This document shows positions 57,165 through 62,463 of a stretch of 64,000 nt of DNA, in pieces. The notes beneath the pieces are model-generated. The model had not been told where the DNA came from, ran no database searches, and worked only from the letters and a program-made list of their open reading frames with translations. The DNA is taken from NCBI RefSeq assembly GCF_003991225.1, contig NZ_JTFC01000031.1:434001-498000 (forward strand). Reading direction: 5' to 3'. The DNA comes from Candidatus Kurthia intestinigallinarum (lineage in GTDB: Bacteria; Bacillota; Bacilli; Bacillales_A; Planococcaceae). Each line of letters opens with the position of its first letter. Position 1 is the first letter of the stretch. The translations under genes were made by a program, and so were the position numbers.

Positions 57165-57842
57165 TTAAAATAGCAACCAAGCAACAAACGGACAAAGAAC
57201 CGCACCTAAAATGGCACTCAGCGTCATCGATACCGAGCCAATCGAGAGCGTTTGCTCACCGTATTCTGTCAGCTTACTCACACCAATGCCGTGCGAGGCA
57301 CTCCCCATCGATACACCGCGACTAACAGGTGTATCAATGTTAAACAGTCGGTAACAAAGTGGGCCACAAATCGCGCCTACAATGCCGGCCACAATAACGA
57401 AAAATACCGTAAACTGTGGAATGCCACCAATCATCGCACTAATTTGTAGTGCCACTGGTGATGTAATGGATTTTGGTAAATAGCTAAGCATTACCGCATC
57501 TTCTAATTTCATAATCCACGCCATGAGTAGCACTGTCAGCATCCCAGCTAGCATTGCAACGCCTACACAACTTAAAATGATTTTTCGATTTTTCATAATC
57601 GTATCCCACTGTGTATATAGTGGATAAGCCATCGCGACAACAGCTGGCCCGAGCAGCCAATTAATAAACTTGCCGCCTTCCATATACGTATCATACGGAA
57701 TATGTGCCAGTGCGAGCAAAACAATTAATACAATCGTCGATGTTAAAATCGGAAATAAAAATGAAATACCTGAACGCTTGTAGAGCCACGTCATCAACAT
57801 AAAAATCCCAACTGTCAGTGCAATAAAACTAATCGCGACCAT
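57165..57842 (-). CDS. lrgB: LrgB/CidB-family membrane protein
   Basis: 225 aa with about seven membrane segments and the family sequence [15 protein letters not shown] and [11 protein letters not shown]. LrgAB-type pairs were described as antiholin-like proteins, and in B. subtilis (PftAB) and Streptococcus as pyruvate transporters. GGAGGGGA lies upstream of the chosen ATG (MVAISFIAL), which overlaps the lrgA 3' end by 14 bases. Confidence 0.9.
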
Positions 57843-58194
57843 GTGCATTCCCCTCCATTTTCCGTGCAAGCTTACCGGTTAATACGAGCGTAATAAGCGT
57901 ACTAATGGTCACAATCACAATGAGAATGACACCGTAGCCAGATAACAGCTCTGGATAATTCATAATACCAACTGTTACCGGGATAAAGAGTAATGTCAAA
58001 ATCGGCAGTAAAAAGCCCGCGCCCTCTTTGACAAATTTGGCGGGCATAATGCCACTTAGTAAGCATCCTAACAATAAAAGTAAGCCAATGATGCTCCCAG
58101 GTAACGGGATATGTAGCCACTCGACGAGTACCGTACCAATCCAACAAAATGCATACAGTACAAAAATTTGAATGATGATTTTTAAATATTTCAT
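57829..58194 (-). CDS. lrgA: LrgA/CidA-family membrane protein
   Basis: 121 aa with four membrane segments and the holin-like core IPLPGSIIGLLLLLGCL. It partners LrgB. AAGGTGGTGGG precedes the ATG of MKYLKIIIQIF; the 15-codon extension has no ribosome binding site. First gene of the pair, behind its own promoter. No lytSR two-component genes are visible in the window, so control is unknown. Confidence 0.9.
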   Translation of the reverse strand: MKYLKIIIQIFVLYAFCWIGTVLVEWLHIPLPGSIIGLLLLLGCLLSGIMPAKFVKEGAGFLLPILTLLFIPVTVGIMNYPELLSGYGVILIVIVTISTLITLVLTGKLARKMEGNAHGRD

Positions 58195-58218
58195 TTTCCC
58201 ACCACCTTTTCCAACAAT

Positions 58219-58246
58219 TGTATAATCAAACGATTGCACTCGTCAA
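58219..58246 (-). promoter_or_regulatory. Promoter of lrgAB
   Basis: Minus strand TTGACG (58241-58246), 16 bases, TATACA (58219-58224), about 25 bases before the lrgA start. Confidence 0.65.
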
Positions 58247-58317: not shown

Positions 58318-61300
58318 TTAAATATCTTTGTTTTCGTGTGCACGATCTTTTTTCAGTAATTTAGATAGCAGTTCGTAAACAAGTGGTACGACGATTAATG
58401 TTAAGACCGTCGAACTAATTAAACCACCGATTACCGTAATCCCCATCCCTTTTGAAATAAGACCAGCGCCCTCGCCACCAATTGCTAGTGGCACTAATGC
58501 AGCAATCGTTGCAATGGCTGTCATCAGAATCGGACGTAGACGTGTCGCACCCGCTTCAAGAATCGCTTCTCGTAGTGATAAACCGTCATGTTCCATATGG
58601 ATAATACGGTCGACCAGCACGATGGCGTTCGTGACAACGATACCGACGAGCATCAGTACCCCGATTAATGAAGATACACTGATTGTTTCACCAGCAATCC
58701 ATAATGCGACAAGCGCACCGATTACAGTGAATGGTAATGAGAATAAAATCGAGAATGGTGCAAGACCTTCACCAAATGTTACAACAAGTACGAAGTAAAC
58801 AATCGCAATGGCTGCCGCAATCGCAAGACCAAGTTGAGAGAATGTGCTTGCGATGTCTTCTGTCACACCACCAGCATCAATTGTCACACCGTTTGGTACA
58901 TCGATTTTATCGATTTCTTTTTGTACAACTGAACCAACGCCAGAAATATCTTTATCCGTTACAGTAGCTGTTACTGTCGCATAATATTTACCGCCGCTAC
59001 GTGTGATTTCTGTTTGCGTTTTGTCTTTTTTAACATCGACTACTTCGCTTAGTTTCACTTTTTCGCCAGTTGGTGTTGTAATTTTTTCAGCTAATACTTT
59101 TTCAAATGTATCAGGACTTGTTGCCGCTGTTTTCAACTGAACATCGATTGTTTTACCGTCTTCTTTAATCGTTGTTAGCGTTGTTGCCTGCACATTTGGG
59201 TTAATCGCCATTGCGATTTGGCCGGTAGTTAAACCAAGCTCATTGGCGCGTTTTTGATCTACGACTAATGTTTTTTCATCATACTCTTCAGATAATGACG
59301 ATTTCACATCTTTTAAATCGTTATTTTTTTTCATCACTGCTTCCATGTCTTTAATGACTGGGCGCATGTCCTCGATTGTATTACCGTGGACAGAGTATGA
59401 TAATTCGCTATTTGATGAGCCCGTGAAGTTTTGCTCTTTCCATTCACCTGGTACATCAACTGCTTGGATTTTCTTCACTAATGCCGTTTTCTTATCCGCA
59501 AAGTTTTCTGTATCTGAATCGTAAATGATGTATACTAAACCACCATTACCACCGCCACCCATCATTGGGTTTGAGCCACCGATTGATGTTTGGATTGTGT
59601 CAACATCTGGTGCATCCTTAATGATTTTTTCAGCTTTATCAATGTCTTTAATGACTTGGTCACGTGTTTGACCAGGCTCTGGTGTATACGTCACATAGGC
59701 CATTTTTTGCTCATCATCTGGTAAGAAGCTAAAGCCAACAAGTGGTGCTAAGAATAAGCTACCTACTAGTAAAAGAATCGCGCCAATTGATGTTACCCAT
59801 TTATGATCTAAAATCCATTTTAATGCGCGTTTGTAGCCACGTGCCATTTTGCCATGCTCTTCTTTTTTATGCGCACGTTCAGCAGGCTCTTTATATAGTT
59901 CCTTTTTGAATAGTGAATGCGCAAGTACGGGAACGACGGTAATCGCTACAAGTAATGATGCGAATAACGCAAAGCCCATTGTAAGAGCGAATGGTAAGAA
60001 TAATTCGCCGACCATGCCGCCTACTAAACCGATTGGTAGGAATACAGCTACCGTTACAATTGTTGACGCTAGGATTGGGCGGAACATTTCAAGTGTTGCC
60101 GAACGGATTAATGCACGACCACTTAATTTTTCGTCTTTTGAATACAGACGACGATAAATATTTTCGACGACGACAATCGAGTCATCAATAACCCGACCGA
60201 TTGCAACGGTCATTGCACCAAGCGTCATCATATTTAGCGTAATATCTAGCTCTTTTAAGAAGATAACTGCAATTAATAATGACAGTGGAATCGAGATAAT
60301 CGAAATAATTGTTGAACGGATGTTACGCAGGAATAGCATAATAATAACTACGGCTGCTAATGCCCCAAATAACGCTTTTTCAAGCATTGTGTTCACTGAT
60401 TTTTCGATTGGGTCCCCTTGGTCTAAGGTAACGTCGATTTTGACATCTGGATTTTCTTTTTCAAATGCTTTTGCTGCGTCTTTCACTTCTTGCACAACAT
60501 CAACTGTGTTGGCATCTTGTGCTTTTACGACTTGAACAGCAATCGCATCTTTCCCGTTTGTACGTGAAACCGACTCTACTTCACCGACTAATTCCATTTT
60601 CGCAATGTCTTTTAGTTTTACAGTAGATGGTTTTGCTGCCTCAGCTTGAGCCGCTGCAGCTGCTGCCGCTTGTACTTCCGCACCAGCCGCTTGTTGCGCT
60701 TGACCTTGAGAAGCCGCTTGTGCTGCGCTAGCTTGTGTAGAAGCTGCGCTTTGCTGTACAGGGATTTCTAAGTTTTTCAATTTCTTTAATGTTGTCATTT
60801 TACCGTCGACAACAACTGATTGCTCTGAATCTTTAAATTCAAACATACCTAGCGGTGCTGTTGTATCCATCGCTTGGATAAATTGCTTCACAGAATCCTC
60901 TGTTAAGCCATTCGCCGCTAATTTTTTGTCATCAAACTCAAGCTCTACTTTCTTCACTTGTTGGCCTGATAATGACACCGAAGAAACGCCATCTAATTGT
61001 TCCATTTTTGGCTGTAAATAATCTTCTGCTGTTTTTGTTAATTCGGTAATATCTTGATCTGTTGAAGACACACTAAGTGCCACAACGGGGAATGCATTTA
61101 ATGATAAACGGTCAATCGTTGGACTTTCCGCTGTCTCAGGCAGTTCGACCTTTTCTAATGCTTCCTTGATGTTTTGGCGCGCCTCTTTCATATCCGTACT
61201 GTAGTCGAATTCTACTTGGATATTCGACATATTTGAATAAGAAGTAGACTGAACTGTTTTCACGCCCTCTAAGTTTGCTACAGCTTTTTCATAGGGGGTC

Positions 61301-61494
61301 GATATATCTTCCTCCACTTGTTCTGGAGTAGCACCCGGATAAACTGTCGCTACCGAAATAATCGGTACCGAAATATCCGGAATCGATTCACTCTTCATAT
61401 TTAGACCTGAATAAACGCCTGCACATGCTAGAATAATCGTCATGAGCCATACTGCTAGCTTATTTTTCAGGACAAATTTGACAAAGCCATTCAA
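58318..61494 (-). CDS. RND-family efflux transporter (SwrC/AcrB-like) with Ala/Gln-rich insertion
   Basis: 1058 aa proton-driven exporter resembling SwrC, the Bacillus surfactin-resistance pump. It has one N-terminal membrane helix (about 13-31), two large extracellular porter regions and two blocks of membrane helices. The proton-relay Asp residues are present in the GRVIDDSIVVVENIYR-type segment. Residues about 247-289 are a low-complexity run of Ala and Gln inside the first porter region, not expected in the family. The start codon is TTG with AGGCGGTG seven bases upstream. The gene is divergent from the TetR gene and shares its operators; no membrane-fusion partner is adjacent. Confidence 0.92.
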   Translation of the reverse strand: MNGFVKFVLKNKLAVWLMTIILACAGVYSGLNMKSESIPDISVPIISVATVYPGATPEQVEEDISTPYEKAVANLEGVKTVQSTSYSNMSNIQVEFDYSTDMKEARQNIKEALEKVELPETAESPTIDRLSLNAFPVVALSVSSTDQDITELTKTAEDYLQPKMEQLDGVSSVSLSGQQVKKVELEFDDKKLAANGLTEDSVKQFIQAMDTTAPLGMFEFKDSEQSVVVDGKMTTLKKLKNLEIPVQQSAASTQASAAQAASQGQAQQAAGAEVQAAAAAAAQAEAAKPSTVKLKDIAKMELVGEVESVSRTNGKDAIAVQVVKAQDANTVDVVQEVKDAAKAFEKENPDVKIDVTLDQGDPIEKSVNTMLEKALFGALAAVVIIMLFLRNIRSTIISIISIPLSLLIAVIFLKELDITLNMMTLGAMTVAIGRVIDDSIVVVENIYRRLYSKDEKLSGRALIRSATLEMFRPILASTIVTVAVFLPIGLVGGMVGELFLPFALTMGFALFASLLVAITVVPVLAHSLFKKELYKEPAERAHKKEEHGKMARGYKRALKWILDHKWVTSIGAILLLVGSLFLAPLVGFSFLPDDEQKMAYVTYTPEPGQTRDQVIKDIDKAEKIIKDAPDVDTIQTSIGGSNPMMGGGGNGGLVYIIYDSDTENFADKKTALVKKIQAVDVPGEWKEQNFTGSSNSELSYSVHGNTIEDMRPVIKDMEAVMKKNNDLKDVKSSLSEEYDEKTLVVDQKRANELGLTTGQIAMAINPNVQATTLTTIKEDGKTIDVQLKTAATSPDTFEKVLAEKITTPTGEKVKLSEVVDVKKDKTQTEITRSGGKYYATVTATVTDKDISGVGSVVQKEIDKIDVPNGVTIDAGGVTEDIASTFSQLGLAIAAAIAIVYFVLVVTFGEGLAPFSILFSLPFTVIGALVALWIAGETISVSSLIGVLMLVGIVVTNAIVLVDRIIHMEHDGLSLREAILEAGATRLRPILMTAIATIAALVPLAIGGEGAGLISKGMGITVIGGLISSTVLTLIVVPLVYELLSKLLKKDRAHENKDI

Positions 61495-61520
61495 AGTAAA
61501 ACACCGCCTCTTTCACATAA

Positions 61521-61549
61521 TTGACTAAGCGGTCATCATTCATTATAAT
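61521..61549 (+). promoter_or_regulatory. Promoter of the tetR-type gene
   Basis: Plus strand TTGACT (61521-61526), 17 bases, TATAAT (61544-61549). Operator site A overlaps the spacer and -35, and site B begins right after the -10, so the regulator probably represses itself. Confidence 0.82.
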
Positions 61550-61594
61550 AATGACCAGCTAGTCATTACTTTAATAGTAATGACCGTATAGTCA
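61522..61594. promoter_or_regulatory. Three-site palindromic operator array
   Basis: Three copies of the 14-bp palindrome TGACC-NNN-TAGTCA: site A on the minus strand at 61522-61535 (centre GCT), site B at 61552-61565 (AGC), site C at 61581-61594 (GTA). Starts are 30 and 29 bases apart, close to three helical turns. The sites cover the tetR promoter, the start region and the spacer of the pump promoter. Confidence 0.85.
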
Positions 61595-61602
61595 AAAGTC
61601 AA
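61574..61602 (-). promoter_or_regulatory. Promoter of the RND pump gene
   Basis: Minus strand TTGACT (61597-61602), 17 bases, TACTAT (61574-61579). Operator site C fits exactly in the spacer. Confidence 0.7.
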
Positions 61603-61626
61603 TTTTAAAGGGAGGTTGCTACGACC

Positions 61627-62463
61627 ATGTCGAAAAAAGAGCTGATTATCCAAAAATCAAAAGAATTATTCTCGACAAAAGGGATCGAACAAACTTCCAT
61701 CGAAGATATTACAAAAGCTTGTAAAATATCAAAAGGTGCCTTTTATTTGTCATTCAAATCAAAGGATGCATTGATGCTTGCGATTGTCGATAGTATTATT
61801 CGTGAGGTCATTGTTCATATCCAACAATTAAATGATGAAGAGATCTCTTCGCATGAACGGCTTGAGCGATACTGTGCTTATAATTTTTCAATATTAGAAC
61901 AGCATGCTCCACTTGTTATTATGTATTTACAAAATCAACCTATTTCAAACGATGATTTATTGGCCCATATTTCGCAGTTTGGGCTACAGATTGAAAAATA
62001 TGTTTTAATTTTTTTAGAGGATGCCTATCCGTTCGTACCGAAAGAAAAAGTATATGATTTAGCAATTTATTTAAACGGACTCATTAAAGGCTTCGGTGAA
62101 TTTTTCTTTAATAAGCAAATTCCGTATCAATTTGCTGACGTGGCGTCGCATATTATGCACTGTCTAGATGCTCTAGCACAGGCAGAACTAGCCGTTTTTG
62201 TGAACGCGGAATTATATGAAAGTAATCGTAAATCCCCCTTCCACTTTAAGCCTGAGGAAATGACGATCATCGAATTAGAAGAAATTGAGCGGTGTCTTGT
62301 CTTATATGATGACCACCCATTTTATAAGGAGACCTTACTTGTATTAAAAGAGGAATTACAGCGCGACGAGCCGCGTAAAGCTCTGTTAGCAGGCATGACG
62401 AATAATTTAATGCAGGAAAAAGAATTACAATGGCTCGCTACCTTACTTAAGCAAACACTTTAA
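61627..62463 (+). CDS. TetR-family transcriptional regulator of the RND pump
   Basis: 278 aa, longer than the usual 190-210. The N-terminal helix-turn-helix (about 8-55) reads KSKELFSTKGIEQTSIEDITKACKISKGAFYLSFKSKDAL. The rest is a helical ligand-binding and dimerisation domain with an added C-terminal part (about 200-278) of unknown role. GGGAGG precedes the ATG. Divergent arrangement and the operator array make it the likely repressor of the pump and of itself. Inducer unknown. Confidence 0.92.
   Translation: MSKKELIIQKSKELFSTKGIEQTSIEDITKACKISKGAFYLSFKSKDALMLAIVDSIIREVIVHIQQLNDEEISSHERLERYCAYNFSILEQHAPLVIMYLQNQPISNDDLLAHISQFGLQIEKYVLIFLEDAYPFVPKEKVYDLAIYLNGLIKGFGEFFFNKQIPYQFADVASHIMHCLDALAQAELAVFVNAELYESNRKSPFHFKPEEMTIIELEEIERCLVLYDDHPFYKETLLVLKEELQRDEPRKALLAGMTNNLMQEKELQWLATLLKQTL

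Follow-up and report, generated by a model that had tools for sequence, protein, structure and literature searches.

The window analysed here, the whole stretch of 64,000 nucleotides from Candidatus Kurthia intestinigallinarum, carries a gene for an RND efflux pump and a gene for a TetR-family regulator that point away from each other, and the intergenic DNA between their start codons measures 132 bp (61495-61626). Three 14-bp dyads are found in this gap, together with a predicted promoter for each of the two genes:

58318-61494, minus strand: RND efflux pump gene with a TTG start, AcrB/HAE1-type and SwrC-like
61627-62463, plus strand: tetR gene for a 278-aa TetR-family regulator, a putative repressor
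61521-61549, plus strand: predicted tetR promoter, TTGACT-17-TATAAT, 11 of 12 consensus positions in the consensus scan (-35 TTGACT 61521-61526; -10 TATAAT 61544-61549)
61574-61602, minus strand: predicted pump promoter, TTGACT-17-TACTAT, 9 of 12 consensus positions in the consensus scan (-35 TTGACT 61602-61597; -10 TACTAT 61579-61574)
61522-61535: predicted operator 1, TGACTAAGCGGTCA (minus-strand reading TGACCGCTTAGTCA), overlapping the tetR -35 hexamer and spacer
61552-61565: predicted operator 2, TGACCAGCTAGTCA, plus-strand match, directly 3' of the tetR -10
61581-61594: predicted operator 3, TGACCGTATAGTCA, plus-strand match, within the 17-bp pump promoter spacer

The pump matches Pfam ACR_tran over its whole length (residues 4-1043; E = 2.1e-208, 694.9 bits) and is the sole protein above the ACR_tran cut-off in the genome. 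An Ala/Gln-rich low-complexity stretch (QQSAASTQASAAQAASQGQAQQAAGAEVQAAAAAAAQAEAAKPS) occupies residues ~245-290, and matches to solved or curated RND pumps break there. Directly downstream of the pump lies a gene pair of the LrgA-LrgB type (57165-58239, minus strand) with its own promoter-like site at 58246-58217. The 278-aa protein possesses a TetR_N domain according to Pfam (E = 4.6e-14; 52.4 bits against a curated cut-off of 24), and its AlphaFold model (pLDDT 85) is all-helical and of TetR type, with a longer C-terminal part. The best PDB matches of this model are TetR-family regulators (best E = 4.6e-05), and over some 180-200 columns their target-normalised TM values reach 0.78. Among the orthologues of the protein the recognition helix, ISKGAFYLSFKSK, hardly varies. 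The closest named relative is Kurthia huakuii, the only named genome reached by the TetR protein scan, whose TetR protein is 84% identical.

The three dyads and the two promoters

All three dyads are present without mismatch where the sequence-only reading had placed them, with start-to-start spacings of 30 bp and then 29 bp, and the consensus scan finds both promoters at the positions proposed there. The sites had also been called identical, which holds in so far as all of them match TGACCNNNTAGTCA, while their inner bases differ. The consensus is better written in its symmetric form, TGACYNNNNRGTCA, which all three sites match. Across the whole 3.93-Mb genome there are three exact copies of TGACCNNNTAGTCA, all in the gap between pump and tetR, and TGACYNNNNRGTCA occurs at these three places only; the reversed control pattern has 6 occurrences. 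Chance matches average 0.09 in the shuffled window, and three or more were obtained in 0 of 100 shuffles.

Start points placed about 7 bases past each -10 would fall near 61556 for tetR and near 61567 for the pump, and with these positions the two promoters appear to face each other. Operator 2 would then lie over the tetR start point and adjoin that of the pump. Operator 1 had been assigned to the spacer between the tetR -35 and -10; it does overlap this spacer, but it overlaps the -35 hexamer itself as well. The layout of the tetR promoter is the same in most relatives.

It was further suggested that the motif would provide a clear consensus for finding a regulon, an expectation that the genome does not bear out. 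A second exact locus with TGACYNNNNRGTCA is absent from the 3.93 Mb, and the one-mismatch search for further regulon members yields 160 sites, fewer than the 244 of the reversed control. The regulator is therefore most likely local, and its regulon appears to consist of this locus alone.

Conservation with the gene pair and loss with tetR

A divergent RND gene is present at all 30 of the relatives' loci fetched by TetR similarity, among which K. huakuii is included twice. The sequence-only reading had staked its claim on conservation of the motif in relatives that keep the gene pair, and the motif proves to be conserved: TGAC-N6-GTCA is found in 44 of 44 intergenic regions, which were picked by protein alone and include the window's own. 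It ranks first among all spaced 4+4 dyads, while no dyad is seen in more than 6 of the 44 when the intergenic regions are shuffled. The strict form TGACYNNNNRGTCA occurs in 43 of these regions. The perfect invariance of TGAC and GTCA in the site count matrices is circular, since the sites were selected by those letters, and the unbiased figure is the dyad count of 44 in 44.

A composite pattern places GTCAA (the pump -35) 2-3 bases past the operator. One copy each is found in 42 of 101 genomes, every time just upstream of the tetR orthologue (threshold E below 1e-20); the pattern is thus present in 42 of the 45 genomes with an orthologue and in none of the 56 without. The dyad is absent from all 20 stretches examined upstream of other TetR genes in the same genomes. 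Three genomes have the orthologue and lack the composite (G004, G017 and G035). One of them, G004, an assembly with 8% contamination, keeps the gene pair; its sole site is a variant, TGACATAATTGTCA, which lies at the tetR -35, and its pump operator is degenerate.

The dyad also stands beside the same pump type in some more distant Bacilli. Four loci of the genus g4 (L111, L112, L115 and L116) have a distant TetR gene beside this type of pump with two TGACYNNNNRGTCA sites 112 bp apart, so that the operator persists although TetR protein identity has fallen to ~28%. In another family of the class, a distant TetR-type gene has four TGACYNNNNRGTCA sites within ~290 bp (L083, G096:C2:424000-425150), and no pump was detected in the fetched stretch. 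Some class-level composite matches (L035, L036 and L058-L064) do not adjoin this pump within the stretch fetched, and were discounted as chance matches or sites of other regulators.

Two genomes have the pump and no tetR orthologue. In a member of the same genus (G005), the pump is 84% identical and the next gene beyond the intergenic region, a dehydrogenase, is 88% identical; the 3-kb upstream stretch has no TGAC-N6-GTCA. The pump promoter remains, with its -35 GTCAA and a TATAGT -10, while the alignment shows AGACCATTTGAATG in place of operator 3 and no more than CGACT--TTAGTCA left of site 2. In the other genome (G034) the pump is 55-58% identical, with no operator within 2 kb. Such joint loss of operators and tetR fits the TetR protein as the one that binds the sites. 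The proposal that the dyads are operators for the adjacent TetR protein over both promoters is supported, the motif being kept with the gene pair and eroded where tetR is lost.

The dyads might instead be by-products of opposed TTGAC -35 hexamers rather than operators, considering that the tetR -35 hexamer makes up one half of site 1 and that the pump -35 is the GTCAA next to site 3. We give this explanation next to no chance, because sites 2 and 3 fall outside both assigned -35 elements, and because G005 has lost the dyad and yet kept the pump -35.

A predicted local switch and its known counterparts

Very probably the three dyads serve as operators for the 278-aa TetR protein encoded next to them, a protein that we infer to bind them and to repress the pump gene and tetR locally until it is released by a ligand. 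By binding TGACYNNNNRGTCA, dimers of the TetR-family protein would block RNA polymerase at two promoters that overlap and face each other: site 3 would fill the pump promoter spacer, site 1 would cover part of the tetR -35, and site 2 would sit over or beside both starts. Pump and regulator would both be held down until a substrate of the pump, probably amphipathic, binds the regulator.

A divergent tetR gene usually controls its neighbour when less than 200 bp separates the two (PMC3511530). The gap of 132 bp falls within this distance, and the relatives examined share the arrangement; moreover, the palindromic predicted operator overlaps both promoters and is conserved with the gene pair, as for a divergent module. 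Such a module of TetR regulator and efflux pump is the ordinary wiring for gene pairs of this sort and of an already known kind. In Tn10, tetR and tetA likewise form a divergent pair of regulator and efflux gene with palindromic operators over both promoters (PMC3511530), but the operator sequence is other than TGACYNNNNRGTCA, there are two sites where one to three are found here, and the pump is an MFS tetracycline pump instead of an RND pump.

In Bacillus subtilis, the adjacent genes of the YerO-SwrC (YerP) system encode a TetR-type protein and an RND pump linked to surfactin self-resistance; the connection of yerP with surfactin self-resistance was reportedly made by Tsuge in 2001. The window pair presumably corresponds to YerO-SwrC, with the SwrC assignment made by gene organisation. 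A literature search found no published operator for YerO, and likewise no published account of the operator described here, in a search that covered few subscription papers. What is new is thus only the consensus and its evolutionary series. As a well-supported predicted operator consensus, TGACYNNNNRGTCA can be attached to a widespread and little-studied regulator of Gram-positive RND pumps.

FarR-FarE of Staphylococcus aureus resembles the present pair in having a TetR regulator divergent to a Gram-positive RND pump and several operator sites in the intergenic DNA, a likeness of arrangement; FarR differs in being required for induction (PMC12671165). As FarR is not a simple repressor, repression as the direction of control is not certain here. 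The TetR protein could bind the sites and yet act on the pump as an activator or in a dual role, in the manner of FarR, which forms four shifted complexes with the intergenic DNA and is needed for inducible farE expression (PMC12671165). We regard such a role as highly improbable, however: operator 3, between the -35 and -10 of the pump, and site 2, at the start points, occupy blocking positions, and the pump promoter hexamers remain where the regulator is lost. Repression until ligand release is the reading that we prefer.

Operator number, spacing and the middle site

The number of operators ranges from one to three among the relatives, with spacings from 29 to 90 bp. Many have a single site in the pump spacer, others have two sites, commonly 30-31 bp apart and sometimes wider. 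The position of operator 3 is the one kept across the family, and a site homologous to operator 1 is present in the two-operator relatives. Of the loci examined, those of the window species and K. huakuii alone have three strict sites evenly spaced at ~30 bp, and these two species group together with an SH-aLRT support of 100%.

The sequence-only reading had put all three sites on one DNA face. At 10.5 bp per turn, however, 29, 30 and 59 bp correspond to 2.76, 2.86 and 5.62 helical turns, and the outer two sites (59 bp) are ~137 degrees apart on the helix, so that the three do not share a face. This bears on the possibility, put forward in the sequence-only reading, that the sites form one cooperative array on a single face, as might be argued from the spacings of 30 and 29 bp here and from the recurrence of 30-31 bp in two-site relatives. 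We consider such an array rather unlikely. The distances of 29 and 30 bp are off integral turns, and that of 59 bp is off by ~137 degrees. Many relatives make do with a single site and spacings elsewhere reach 90 bp, so that the varying number and spacing leave cooperativity unsupported. The spacing instead tracks promoter geometry. In the common two-site layout the -10 elements of tetR and pump overlap, and a spacing of 30-31 bp therefore follows from the promoter spacers; the ~30-bp spacing in the window is explained in the same way by 17-bp spacers and abutting -10 elements. A comparable distance, about 30 bp from centre to centre, separates the two tet operators of Tn10.

A 21-nt repeat in the window, ATAATAATGACC... 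and ATAGTAATGACC..., is 81% identical between the operator 2 and operator 3 units, 29 bp apart. In view of this repeat, the middle site most plausibly arose when a -10/operator unit was duplicated in tandem, an event that would have taken place within the genus. Cooperativity is thus not needed to explain either the spacing or the middle site. It is a long shot that, in the species pair, duplication of the operator unit pulled apart two -10 elements that once overlapped, leaving face-to-face promoters with three operators, and that this gives a steeper or memory-like pump switch by mutual exclusion of polymerases together with three-site repression. The relatives provide a natural series, with one, two or three operators and with regulator and operator lost together, that could be used for testing operator number against pump induction.
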